From NCBI RefSeq assembly GCF_030209755.1, contig NZ_JARVRH010000012.1:186001-250000 (forward strand): a stretch of DNA of 64,000 bases, in the 5' to 3' direction. A program made the translations under genes and the position numbers. This document shows positions 16,714 to 50,397 of this stretch, piece by piece. The stretch is from Arthrobacter sp. efr-133-TYG-118 (GTDB lineage Bacteria > Actinomycetota > Actinomycetes > Actinomycetales > Micrococcaceae). Under the pieces are notes generated by a model that ran no database searches, was not told the DNA's origin, and worked only from the letters and a program-made list of their open reading frames with translations. Position 1 is the first letter of the stretch. Each line of letters starts with the position of its first letter.

Positions 16714-19116
16714 GTGAGCAATCACGACATCCTCCACCAAACGGGCACGCGCATCATCGAACTCGACATCGAGGGCATGACGTGCGCATCCTGCGTGGCC
16801 CGCGTAGAGCGGAAACTGGGCAAGCTGGACGGCGTGGAGGCTTCAGTCAACCTCCCCCTCGAATCAGCCCAGGTAACAGTTCCGGACAATGTCACCGACC
16901 AACAAATCGTGGACACAGTGAACGCAACGGGTTACAAAGCCTGGATCCGCGAATCCACGCGGTCCCACTCCGTCGCCCAGGCCCCCGATCGCGAAACCAG
17001 CATGCTCGGCGCGCTCGAGACCGACGCCGTGCACCTTGGCGAGCACAGTGCCGCCACCGAGGCTTCAGGCGACCACGGTGCCGCAGCGCAAGTCGCCCAC
17101 GAAGACCACATGCACCACGGCCCTGCGTCCCGCCAGCTAAAGCCGAGACTGATCGCCGCTGCCATTCTGACGGTCCCGGTCTTCGTCATCTCGATGATTC
17201 CGGCTCTGCAGTTCCCGCAATGGGGCTGGGTGGCCGCAGCACTTGCACTTCCCGCGGTGACGTGGGCTGCCTGGCCCTTCCACCGCGCCGCCGCCATCAA
17301 CGCGCGCCATCTCGCCTCGACAATGGACACCCTCGTCTCCATTGGCGTCCTCGCCGCATACCTCTACTCTGCGTGGCAGCTCTTTGCCAACCCCATGATG
17401 ACCGAACACCCCGGCATGGAGACCATGGGAGGCGTGAGCGGTGGGCTGTACTTCGAAGTTGCGGCCGTGGTCACCACCTTCCTGCTTCTGGGCCGTTTCC
17501 TTGAGGCCAACGCCAAAGCGAAGGCCGGCGATGCCCTCAAGGCCCTGCTGAATCTGGGAGCCAAGGACGCAACGGTGCTGCGCGACGGCGTCGAGCACAA
17601 GATCCCGGCCGAGCAACTCGTGGCAGGGGACATCTTCGTGGTTCGACCGGGAGAGAAGATCGCCACGGACGGCTTGGTGACGAGCGGTTCGTCTGCCGTG
17701 GATGCCTCATTGGTGACAGGTGAATCCGTGCCCGTGGAGGTCGGACCGGGAAGCCAGGTCACGGGCGCCACCATCAATACTTCGGGCCGCTTGCTGGTCT
17801 GCGCGACCCGCGTGGGTTCCGACACTACGCTGGCACAAATGGGGCGGTTGGTGAGCCAGGCGCAGACGGGCAAGGCCCCGATTGCGCGGCTCGCCGATCG
17901 CATCAGCGCCGTCTTCGTTCCGGTTGTGCTGGTCATCGCCGTCGTTACCTTCGTCTTCTGGCTCGCCCTGAGCGGGGACCTCAATGCCTCGTTCACGGCT
18001 GCTGTGGCGGTGCTCGTGATTGCCTGCCCGTGTGCGCTTGGGCTCGCGACTCCCGTTGGCCTCCTGACCGGGACCGGTCGGGGCGCGCAGCTCGGCATCC
18101 TCATCAAGGGTCCACAGGTGCTTGAAGATACGCGCACTGTGGACGCCATCCTGCTGGACAAGACCGGAACCGTCACCAGCGGCAAACTCGCCGTTGGACA
18201 CACCCTGGCCTTGAACGGCCACTCCCCCGCCGACGTCTTGTCTCTCGCCGGCGCCGTCGAGGCAGCGTCGGAGCACCCCATCGCCCACGCCATTGCCGCT
18301 GCCGCCAAGTCCGCAATGCCCGACGCCGGCCCACTCCCGGCTGTGAAGGACTTCAGTTCCGCCCCGGGCGGCGGAGTCCGGGGGATGGTTGCGCTGAACG
18401 GAGCCGGAAATGACGCCGAGCGAACCGTCGTGGCCGGCAGGACTGGCTGGTTGGAACACAACGGAATCTTCCCTGACGATGCACAGCGCCAGGCCCTCGC
18501 CTCTGAGGAAGCAGGTGGCGCTACCGCCATCTGGGTTGCTGTGGACGGGATGCCCGCTGGAATAGTCACGCTAAGGGACACCGTCAAACCCGGTTCGGCG
18601 GCCGCCATCGCGAAGCTCAAGGAACTCGGGATCCGCCCTCTGCTGCTGACCGGAGACAACGCAGCCGTCGCCGCCCAAGTGGCCACCGCCGTCGGGATCG
18701 CCCCGGAAGACGTATTCGCTGGGGTCCTGCCGGAAGGCAAAGTGGATGCGGTACGGAAACTCCAGGCCCAGGGCTCCACTGTGGCCATGGCCGGGGATGG
18801 AGTCAACGACGCCGCAGCACTGGCGCAAGCCGACCTTGGCATCGCCATGGGTTCGGGCACGGATGTGGCCATAGAGGCCTCGGATCTGACCGTGATGGGC
18901 AGCGACCTCGGCCAGCTGGTGCAAGCCATCGAGCTGTCCCGGAAGACGCTCTCAACCATCAAGACAAACCTGTTCTGGGCGTTCTTCTACAACGCCATCG
19001 GTATCCCCGTGGCCGCCCTTGGTTTGCTCAACCCGATGATCGCCGGCGCGGCCATGGCTGCGAGCTCGGTCCTGGTGGTCGCAAATTCGCTACGGTTGCG
19101 CTCGTTTGCAAAGTAG
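16714..19116 (+). CDS. copA: Cu(+)-exporting P1B-type ATPase
   Basis: This 800-aa heavy-metal ATPase has one N-terminal HMA domain (CASC, Cys24/Cys27) and a His-rich linker around 123-136. It has eight predicted membrane helices, the actuator TGE (335-337) and the transmembrane CPC metal site (438-440). The phosphorylation motif DKTGT is at 482-486, followed by SEHPIAHAI, TGDN and GDGVNDAAAL. CPC plus the linked csoR/copZ genes points to Cu(I) export across the cytoplasmic membrane. The start is GTG at 16714; the overlapping ATG at 16712 is out of frame. Confidence 0.94.
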   Translation: MSNHDILHQTGTRIIELDIEGMTCASCVARVERKLGKLDGVEASVNLPLESAQVTVPDNVTDQQIVDTVNATGYKAWIRESTRSHSVAQAPDRETSMLGALETDAVHLGEHSAATEASGDHGAAAQVAHEDHMHHGPASRQLKPRLIAAAILTVPVFVISMIPALQFPQWGWVAAALALPAVTWAAWPFHRAAAINARHLASTMDTLVSIGVLAAYLYSAWQLFANPMMTEHPGMETMGGVSGGLYFEVAAVVTTFLLLGRFLEANAKAKAGDALKALLNLGAKDATVLRDGVEHKIPAEQLVAGDIFVVRPGEKIATDGLVTSGSSAVDASLVTGESVPVEVGPGSQVTGATINTSGRLLVCATRVGSDTTLAQMGRLVSQAQTGKAPIARLADRISAVFVPVVLVIAVVTFVFWLALSGDLNASFTAAVAVLVIACPCALGLATPVGLLTGTGRGAQLGILIKGPQVLEDTRTVDAILLDKTGTVTSGKLAVGHTLALNGHSPADVLSLAGAVEAASEHPIAHAIAAAAKSAMPDAGPLPAVKDFSSAPGGGVRGMVALNGAGNDAERTVVAGRTGWLEHNGIFPDDAQRQALASEEAGGATAIWVAVDGMPAGIVTLRDTVKPGSAAAIAKLKELGIRPLLLTGDNAAVAAQVATAVGIAPEDVFAGVLPEGKVDAVRKLQAQGSTVAMAGDGVNDAAALAQADLGIAMGSGTDVAIEASDLTVMGSDLGQLVQAIELSRKTLSTIKTNLFWAFFYNAIGIPVAALGLLNPMIAGAAMAASSVLVVANSLRLRSFAK

Positions 19117-19136
19117 CTGTGGCGCCCAACTAGCTA

Positions 19137-19178
19137 GCAGTTGTTGTCGTTATCCGGCGTGAGAACGGCAACAACTGC
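19137..19178 (+). terminator. Hairpin after copA
   Basis: The arms 19137-19151 and 19164-19178 (gcagttgttg.cgtt) pair over 15 bp with one G-T wobble and a 12-base loop. It lies 20 bp past the copA stop and also downstream of the converging DUF2277 gene, so it probably ends both transcripts. Confidence 0.65.
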
Positions 19179-19195
19179 CAGTCAGTTTGCGGAGG

Positions 19196-48952: not shown

Positions 48953-49792
48953 CTATAGCCGCACGGTTCCCTGGATGCACATCACCGAGCTCCCGCCCAC
49001 CCAGATGTCGCCGTCTTCCGCCTTGACGTGGATGCGTCCCGCCCGGCCCAGCACCGTACCCTGCGCGGCGACGTATTGCTCCGGAGCCCGGCCGCTGCCG
49101 ATCAGCCACTGGGCGGCTCCCGCGTTGAAGCTTCCGGTCACGGGGTCCTCCACCATGGCGTCTCGGGGAATGAACGTCCGGACCTCGAAATCGACGCCGG
49201 CACCCGGTTCATGGGGACCGATCACTCCAACCTTCAGATCCCCCAACGCCGCGAGGTCCGGAGCGAGGCCAAGGACCCGCTCGGCCGATTCGAGCAGCAC
49301 ACCGATCCATTGCGGGCCGTTGACCAGCCACGAGGCATCCAGGAGCGCGGTTTGGGGCAGTCGGAGTCCAGAAGTCAACTGTTTCACGGTTGCCCCGCCG
49401 ACGGGCCCGAAGCGCGTCAGTGGCGGCGCAGCGAAGGCGAGGCGGCCGCCGTCGAGCTTCACCTTGACCAAGCCGGCGCCACATTCCTGAACCAGCGTCC
49501 CTTCCTGCTTCGGGACACCGCCGGCCGCCAGCCACGCATGCGCCGAGCCGAGCGTCGGATGTCCCGCGAAAGGAAATTCCTCGCTGCCAGTGAAGATCCG
49601 CACGCGGTAATCGGCCGCAGGATCGCTGGGCGGCAGCAGGAAGGTGGTCTCAGACAAGTTGGTCCAGTTGGCAAAGTGCTGCATTTGCTCCGTGCCGAGC
49701 CCTTCTGCGTCGACGACCACGGCAAGCGGATTGCCGAGCTTCCTTAGCGCGAACTGGCAGCTAATGCCCCTCACGAGGCCGCGAGAGGGCAT
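48953..49792 (-). CDS. PhzF-family isomerase with replaced N-terminus
   Basis: This 279-aa PhzF/DapF-fold protein has LGNPLAVVVDAEGL, NLSETTFLLPP (with the family's catalytic Glu) and GHPTLGSAHAWL. The C-terminal half has DPVTGSFNAGAAQWL. The first strand that precedes GNPLAV in the family (usually xxVDVFT) is missing. Codons 1-15, including the ATG at 49792, are encoded by a 61-bp palindrome (49748-49808). No PhzF-like coding sequence lies beyond it. The protein is therefore 5'-truncated or re-started and may be inactive. No phenazine genes are nearby; most PhzF homologues act elsewhere. Confidence 0.72.
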   Translation of the reverse strand: MPSRGLVRGISCQFALRKLGNPLAVVVDAEGLGTEQMQHFANWTNLSETTFLLPPSDPAADYRVRIFTGSEEFPFAGHPTLGSAHAWLAAGGVPKQEGTLVQECGAGLVKVKLDGGRLAFAAPPLTRFGPVGGATVKQLTSGLRLPQTALLDASWLVNGPQWIGVLLESAERVLGLAPDLAALGDLKVGVIGPHEPGAGVDFEVRTFIPRDAMVEDPVTGSFNAGAAQWLIGSGRAPEQYVAAQGTVLGRAGRIHVKAEDGDIWVGGSSVMCIQGTVRL

Positions 49793-49808
49793 CTACTGCC
49801 AGTTCGCG
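49748..49808. repeat. Palindromic repeat forming the 5' end of the phzF-like gene
   Basis: The arms 49748-49772 and 49783-49808 share CGCGAACTGGCAG and ATGCCC with a 3-base mismatch between them, around a 10-base loop. It behaves like a REP-type element and also supplies the start codon of the phzF-like reading frame. Confidence 0.65.
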
Positions 49809-49830
49809 GGCCCCGAAACCGCGCAAAGCA

Positions 49831-49869
49831 AAGGACCCCCGCCTCCGGAAACCGGAGACGGGGGTCCTT
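49831..49869 (-). terminator. Terminator after rplI
   Basis: An 18-bp GC-rich stem (aaggacccccgcctccgg, 49831-49848, with 49852-49869) has one wobble and a 3-base loop, and a T-rich tract follows on the minus strand. It lies 75 bp past the rplI stop and closes the rpsF-ssb-rpsR-rplI operon. Confidence 0.85.
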
Positions 49870-49944
49870 CGAGCTGCGTCAGAAACTACCGCAGCGCGAT
49901 GCCCCCTCGAAGCTTCGCAAGCTCAGCTTCCAGGGAACCCTGCA

Positions 49945-50397
49945 TCACTTGCTTGCAACGACCTCGAGGTCGATGACAGCAGAAACGTCCTCGTGCAGGC
50001 GGACGTTGGCCTGGTACGAACCAAGGGACTTGATGTGGTTCGGCAGTTCAACGTTGCGCTTGTCGATGGAGCCGAGGCCTGCGGCCTCAACTGCAGCAGC
50101 GACATCAGCCGGCTTGACGGTGCCGAAGAGACGACCGGACTCGCCGGCCTTCACTACGAGCTTGACCTTCTTGGAAGAAAGCGCAGAAGCCTGGGCCTGT
50201 GCAGCTTCAACCGAAGCGTGGGCACGAGCAGCGCGGGCAGCCTTGATGGACTCAACCTGCTTCTCGCCACCCTTGGTCCAGGTCAGAGCGAAGCCGCGGG
50301 GCAGCAGGAAGTTACGTGCGTAACCGTCCTTGACCTCGACAACATCGCCAGCAGCACCGAGACCGGTTACTTCGTGGGTCAGAATGAGCTTTGCCAT
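49945..50397 (-). CDS. rplI: 50S ribosomal protein L9
   Basis: This 150-aa L9 has the canonical N-domain [37 protein letters not shown]. The long connecting helix runs about 42-75, and the C-domain has [20 protein letters not shown] and [21 protein letters not shown]. It binds 23S rRNA near the base of the L1 stalk. It is the last gene of the rpsF-ssb-rpsR-rplI operon, 17 bp after rpsR. Confidence 0.97.

Follow-up and report, generated by a model that had tools for sequence, protein, structure and literature searches.

A 92-bp deletion beside a resident 65-bp palindromic repeat has very probably removed the promoter and start region of a PhzF-family gene downstream of rplI in Arthrobacter sp. 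efr-133-TYG-118, leaving a gene that would now be mostly silent and decaying. In a gene that was probably leaderless, one small deletion of this kind takes away the promoter, the start, and the first strand together. The name "window" is used for the complete stretch of 64,000 nucleotides that was analyzed, which belongs to a genome (G000) of 5.28 Mb in 50 contigs. Judged by the phzF-like gene, the nearest named relatives are Arthrobacter sp. B2a2-09 and efr-133-R2A-120. L040 and L143 both denote Arthrobacter sp. efr-133-R2A-120, and L107 and L130 denote Hiyo8.

The proposed course of events begins with a PhzF-family gene that stood behind rplI, separated from it by a terminator, the resident repeat, and a leaderless promoter in the order TAGCCT, 6 nt, and GTG start. 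In the lineage of the window, a deletion that reached from 8 bp past the repeat to the end of codon 22 would have taken the start codon together with the −10 box before it and the block encoding strand 1 behind it. The break was presumably rejoined end to end without homology, and the frame that begins at an ATG in the palindrome may be open just by chance. The repeat itself would have been no more than a bystander or, at the utmost, a fragile site favoring a nearby break.

Arrangement of the locus

On the minus strand, rplI is followed by a terminator hairpin, the palindrome, and the PhzF-like open reading frame (ORF) of 279 amino acids. The features are as follows.

49945 to 50397, minus strand: rplI (ribosomal protein L9), upstream neighbor (ORF and alignment)
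49822 to 49878, minus strand: rplI terminator hairpin between rplI and the repeat (27-nt arms, 81%)
49746 to 49810, no strand assigned: 65-bp palindromic repeat element with core 49748 to 49808 (arms, fold, covariance model)
49739 to 49792, minus strand: probable chance frame of 18 codons, 15 from the palindrome and 3 from its flank, without PhzF homology (alignment)
Between 49738 and 49739, no strand assigned: deletion junction, 92 bp lost (comparison with L040 and L107)
48953 to 49738, minus strand: surviving phzF-like portion, beginning with the equivalent of codon 23 in the intact gene and including the stop (PF02567, TIGR00654, alignment)
48953 to 49792, minus strand: PhzF-like ORF, 279 amino acids, ATG at 49792 (ORF list, PF02567)
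19126 to 19189, no strand assigned: second, degenerate repeat copy (covariance model, E = 4e-6)

The ORF at 49945 to 50397 is taken to be rplI, as in the preliminary description of the window; in the alignment, the 3' end of rplI also precedes phzF in L010, L011, L040, L041, L042, and L043. The site at 49822 to 49878 is terminator-like with a T-rich tail, one such site being found compared to 1.0 expected in shuffled sequences. Between the rplI stop and the terminator, at 49885 to 49945, the window contains about 55 additional bp that include GAGCTTGCGA and are absent from L010, L011, and L040. A similar stretch, perhaps another repeat, is also present behind rplI in L035 (genome G016). There was a weak excess of GAGCTTGCGA in the genome (41 copies compared to 22 for the reversed control), and no inverted repeat was called in the stretch that bears it.

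The preliminary description had placed a 61-bp palindrome at 49748 to 49808, just past the rplI terminator hairpin, with the ATG and the first 15 codons of the phzF-like ORF inside it, and had proposed a search for further copies. All of this was found again: two 22-nt arms, 86% complementary, are 17 nt apart at this position, the ORF map puts the ATG (49792) and 15 codons within the palindrome, and the 13-mer CGCGAACTGGCAG occurs 16 times in the genome compared to twice for the reversed control. The symmetry covers 40 of the 61 positions. Folding of the RNA from 49738 to 49820 yielded −54.7 kcal/mol compared to a mean of −32.0 for shuffled sequences (standard deviation, 3.4; n = 200), and this z score of −6.6 indicates that the palindrome did not arise by chance. 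The covariance model of the repeat family (R1) recovers the window copy with 62 bits and an E value of 1.1e-13, this copy being 1 of the 34 training sequences. A comparison of 49650 to 49950 with Rfam gave five matches, all far below the gathering scores; the best was a microRNA family with 26 of 80 bits and an E value of 0.0044.

A deletion of 92 bp next to the repeat

The interval between rplI and phzF was aligned across eight genomes, the window among them. The palindrome was present in the window, L040, L041, and L011, and absent from L010, L042, and L043; L039 has a different upstream neighbor and no palindrome. Hiyo8 also contains the palindrome at the same place, together with a normal start region, but an uninterrupted frame could not be traced to the stop in this genome, so that a palindrome next to a whole gene was counted for L040, L041, and L011 only. 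Behind the palindrome, L040 and Hiyo8 have GCGCTAAGGAAG or GCGCCAAGGAAG, next 92 bp, and after these CTCGGCAAT. In the window, the edges CTAAGGAAG and CTCGGCAAT are joined directly and exactly 92 bp are gone. The deletion starts 8 bp past the 65-bp element, which is undamaged, and ends after codon 22. It comprises 26 bp with the TAGCCT box, followed by the GTG and the rest of codons 1 to 22. The bases at either edge differ, and hence there is no microhomology at the junction; a Ku gene is present in the genome (E = 1.2e-50). This comparison of sequences can be regarded as establishing the deletion with its two ends, the disappearance of the conserved box and start, and the presence of the repeat at this site in relatives that lack the deletion.

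A search of 206 genomes of the genus for the junction, with up to three mismatches allowed, found it in one, the genome of the window. Against the explanation favored here stands that the deletion is known from this one genome, and from its assembly only. In a tree of the retained gene portion and the neighboring gene (10 rows, Hiyo8 left out), in which four of the seven inner branches are open, the window was placed beside L010 (support 91/96, not starred). Because L010 does not contain the palindrome, either this lineage lost the repeat or the repeat was acquired repeatedly. The first reading is the simpler one, since the palindrome is also present in L040, L041, and L011, with repeated gain as the alternative.

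Loss of the putative leaderless promoter and start

An in-frame start codon 6 to 7 nt after a TANNNT motif was found at all 72 orthologous loci surveyed (70 GTG, 2 ATG). These loci were L039 to L110, 72 of 80, with the last eight (L111 to L118, 56 to 63% identity) left out. Shuffled upstream regions contained such a pair at a mean of 0.9 and a maximum of 4 of the 72 loci in 200 rounds. In Mycobacterium tuberculosis, TANNNT boxes are centered 7 to 12 bp before transcript starts, and 26% of the genes with a primary start are leaderless (PMC3898074). The phzF orthologues resemble leaderless actinobacterial genes by their TANNNT box 6 to 7 nt before an in-frame GTG or ATG and differ in that their assignment comes from sequence instead of mapped starts (PMC3898074). 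The 72 TANNNT-start pairs, taken together with the pattern in M. tuberculosis, indicate that the orthologues are very probably leaderless genes. If so, the deletion took promoter and start together: the TAGCCT −10 box, which by its sequence and position should act as the promoter, the leaderless GTG start 6 nt farther on, and codons 1 to 22.

The preliminary description had assumed that the event created a new start. This was not supported, because the conserved −10 box and leaderless start are gone, no substitute was found, and the new ATG lies in the stem of the −54.7-kcal/mol hairpin. The last 250 nt before the GNPLAV motif in the window contain no TANNNT with an ATG or GTG 5 to 8 nt farther on. 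No sigma-70-like site was present between 49600 and 50450 in a scan that covered this promoter type only and expects 0.1 sites by chance. The apparent new start is most likely an accident and an annotation trap, as annotation might take a tidy 279-amino-acid ORF starting in a hairpin for a normal PhzF protein.

The truncated PhzF-like protein

Residues 20 to 275 of the ORF match PF02567 with 162 bits, 12 sequences of solved structures match the ORF, with 1ym5, 1t6k, and 1u1v as solved relatives, and its TIGR00654 score is still above the cutoff. Compared to PhzF isomerases (PF02567, TIGR00654), the ORF retains the NLSETTF and GNPLAV motifs; it does not possess the first strand and the start, and its first 18 residues are nonhomologous. 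The glutamate of the NLSETTF motif, which has a catalytic role in the PhzF family, is E48 here and invariant in 30 of 30 aligned sequences. The family's first strand had already been described as missing, and the comparison agrees: the match of the ORF to the TIGR00654 profile is not full length, starting at position 18 of 298 compared to position 4 for intact L040, and the R-P-F-x-Q-x-D-V-F block, with seven residues invariant in 29 of 29 aligned orthologues, is absent. The N terminus of the ORF is common to none of these 29 orthologues. The 26 best orthologues after the window's own gene (L010 to L035, 74 to 94% identity, open frames of 285 to 297 amino acids) align with it from residues 16 to 20 onward only.

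The possibility that a longer start exists in a different frame or at another place was rejected. The R-P-[FY]-x-Q-x-D-[VL]-F block is in none of the six frames of the window, and no second copy of the N terminus was found in the genome, where the intact L040 protein matches the locus in the window from residue 22 on, plus one paralogue. This paralogue, 30% identical, is located at C1:83167 and might soften the loss of the phzF-like gene. A match to the PhzF-like protein encoded in the window was found in 45 of 59 genomes, including that of the window.

AlphaFold predicted no strand and a pLDDT below 50 for residues 1 to 22 of the ORF, from a shallow alignment, and a strand at residues 8 to 16 of the intact L040 protein with modest confidence. 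The mean pLDDT was 81.8 for the ORF and 69.5 for the intact control; since both alignments were shallow and the N terminus of the ORF was aligned to gaps, only the absence of a strand at residues 1 to 22 was used, as weak evidence.

Two further irregularities were noticed among the orthologues. L107 (Hiyo8) and L074 (Arthrobacter sp. AK04) possess a phzF orthologue in which no open frame of the length expected between GNPLAV and the stop was obtained, which may indicate a frameshift, a pseudogene, or a sequencing error. The 3' end of the L010 gene in G012 contains a short tandem duplication, with GTTAGAGACGCACGGT present twice.

State of the gene

With promoter and start deleted, the gene is probably dead, and the phzF-like ORF can be classified as probably a young pseudogene. 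Loss of promoter and start agrees with this classification, and relaxed constraint agrees with it weakly. Substitutions were counted over the 260 retained codons. The ratio of silent to replacing changes among the gene's own changes was 9:8 for the window, 16:1 for L010, 15:4 for L039, and 18:7 for L040. Fisher's test for 9:8 against the three relatives pooled (49:12) gave an uncorrected p of 0.031, and a version with seven genomes (2:4 against 49:9) gave an uncorrected p of 0.013. In the neighboring gene, the ratios were 12:1 for the window, 13:1 for L010, 13:0 for L039, and 10:5 for L040. The window gene has a modest excess of amino acid changes with small counts, and the excess is tempered by the ratios of L040 alone in phzF and in the neighboring gene. 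At retained codon 191, the window contains G to R in a column that is G in 69 of 71 orthologues; comparable changes exist in relatives with intact genes, for instance, P35T and D42N in L040.

All 279 codons can still be read without a stop, and dN/dS of the whole gene compared to L010, L039, and L040 is low, 0.10 to 0.16. This indicates either a recent loss or some remaining function. A low total dN/dS is what would be expected after a recent loss.

Alternative explanations

The fusion might have yielded a working gene, the palindrome providing a start and 15 codons for a shortened PhzF protein that the cell produces and uses. The 279-amino-acid ORF without a stop, the good confidence of the fold predicted outside the N terminus (mean pLDDT, 81.8), and the low overall dN/dS point in this direction. 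Such a gene, however, would have to be expressed behind the rplI terminator, with neither a TANNNT-start pair nor a sigma-70-like promoter found nearby and with its ATG enclosed in a hairpin of about −55 kcal/mol. Its product would do without seven invariant residues and, on the weak evidence of the structure prediction, without a strand in the new N terminus, and the excess of replacements also argues against its use. A working fusion is very unlikely. An artifact of assembly or sequencing, in which 92 bp were dropped beside a difficult hairpin, is more doubtful still: hairpins disturb sequencing and the assembly is a draft of 50 contigs, but here the hairpin was fully assembled, the lost stretch lies outside it, and the window gene also has an excess of replacements of its own.

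The repeat could have had a part in the event in two ways. It could have been the agent, inserted in or beside the gene and displacing its start. It belongs to a dispersed family whose presence at the same site varies between species, for instance, at the L150 site. At the phzF locus, the repeat is nevertheless present in L011, L040, L041, and L107 next to a normal start region, and compared to L040 and L107 the missing bases are the 92 bp outside the repeat only. Because the same site is occupied in relatives without the deletion, the repeat neither was inserted nor replaced anything; insertion into the gene was rejected, and an active role of this kind is extremely improbable. The preliminary description had proposed that a deletion or insertion brought a truncated gene up against a REP-like element, of which the deletion stood, as L040 and L107 retain the 92 bp, and the insertion did not. 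Its wider claims, that the repeat replaced the start of phzF and that a mobile repeat reshaped coding sequence, were not supported: the repeat is undamaged, occupies this position also in relatives whose start is normal, and is separated from the deleted stretch by 8 bp. Alternatively, the palindrome may have provoked the deletion: replication could have stalled at the hairpin, or a cruciform could have been cleaved, and the adjoining 92 bp would then have been lost in repair. Long palindromes can be cut by nucleases, and a role of the near-perfect 65-bp palindrome is possible because one end of the deletion is only 8 bp away; with the palindrome intact and a single case to judge from, this remains somewhat unlikely. 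A deletion beside a resident repeat, with the repeat as bystander or fragile site, is the preferred reading.

A family of palindromic repeats at gene ends

Loss of the gene is an ordinary event, and the little-known repeat family is the more interesting part and merits a study of its own. A strict repeat pattern was found in 26 of 206 genomes of the genus. The covariance model was built from 34 copies, 26 picked by both arms and 8 by the 13-mer of one arm; it matched 31 of 59 genomes, including that of the window, and 2 of 22 genera. In G000, there were at least 22 repeat sites (42 matches on the two strands at E ≤ 0.01, with 150 of 2,579 candidates scored). Since the copies were picked by patterns, the fixed arms are not informative with respect to conservation. 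Three column pairs were left free by the patterns and change jointly in both arms, with 10, 13, and 14 double changes compared to 6, 6, and 2 unpaired cells.

Placement was analyzed for 84 sites in nine genomes, among the best-scoring matches, with a crude in-house gene caller. Of the 84, 74 were between called genes, which were codirectional at 44 sites, convergent at 28, and divergent at 2; 9 sites overlapped a called ORF and 1 was undecided. For the 72 sites flanked by a stop codon on one side or both, the median distance to it was 16 nt, and 68 were within 40 nt. The gene pairs in the window overall are 8 convergent, 9 divergent, and 45 codirectional, so that the convergent share was 28 of 74 repeat sites compared to 8 of 62 unfiltered window pairs (p = 0.0016). 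An alternative background of 3 in 97 is biased by a gap filter, which makes 8 of 62 the fairer one. The degenerate copy at 19126 to 19189, with CTGGCAGTTGTTGCC-like arms, was seen between called gene ends at 19116 (plus strand) and 19196 (minus strand).

The position after gene ends would fit an intrinsic terminator, but the aligned 65-bp element contains no conserved T tract. Other terminator-like sites accompanied 15 of the 110 gene ends that bear a repeat and 4 of the 72 that do not (p = 0.089).

Two sites were compared besides the phzF locus. The L150 site has the repeat in G000, G200, and G127 but not in G022; the corresponding stretch of G012 is occupied by dissimilar sequence in which no arm was found. 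At the L145 site, all four genomes compared contain the repeat. The presence and absence at the L150 site suggest that copies come and go, slowly.

Searches of plasmid and phage collections gave no repeat match at an E value of 0.1. In IMG/VR, 34 stretches contained one exact arm each, 2 of them with CTGCC within 60 nt, and neither of these 2 with a mirrored arm. No paper on this repeat was found by title or opening of the abstract in a literature search that had most subscription journals outside its scope.

Comparison with known REP systems

REPs associated with RAYTs are described in PMC2817692 and PMC3733652 as 20 to 40 bp long with a GTAG tag and usually more than 100 copies. The window family shares with such REPs that it consists of dispersed extragenic palindromes, often near gene ends and variable between species, and differs by its length of about 65 bp, its about 20 sites, and the absence of a GTAG tag (PMC2817692, PMC3733652). 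The family consists of dispersed extragenic palindromes in many copies, albeit fewer than the usual number above 100. In the family alignment, the ends are mostly GCGC, and the GTAG in the window comes from a variable triplet. No Y1_Tnp domain (RAYT, PF01797) was found in G000, and mobilization of the repeat by a RAYT was rejected on this basis. Among the 59 genomes, Y1_Tnp occurs in 3 (G032, G050, and G057), and the repeat accompanies it in G032 only. CGTC-tagged REPs, according to PMC3733652, are likewise a palindromic family apparently without a dedicated transposase and are reported from five other phyla; the window family has no conserved CGTC end. Arthrobacter and Actinobacteria are not mentioned in the main texts of PMC2817692 and PMC3733652.

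Dispersal, placement, and variability between species suggest that the repeat behaves like a REP, but two features of RAYT-type REPs, the GTAG tag and the RAYT, were not found. Tentatively, an undescribed family of hairpins of about 65 bp in Arthrobacter and its kin may come and go at the 3' ends of genes. With no RAYT involved, the copies would be either mobilized by an unknown transposase or retained as a 3'-end signal that works in both directions, and they would act as break sites that erode neighboring promoters. The placement at 3' ends, the matched changes in the arms, the variability between species, and the absence of a detected RAYT turn the spread of such palindromes into a testable question.

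At G000:C14:88053-90835, three repeat copies (L155, L156, and L158) are located within 2.8 kb around two genes, which we take to be permease-like from their sequence. Two of the three copies possess GTTGTTGCC- or GTGCTGCC-type arms with a slightly longer loop.
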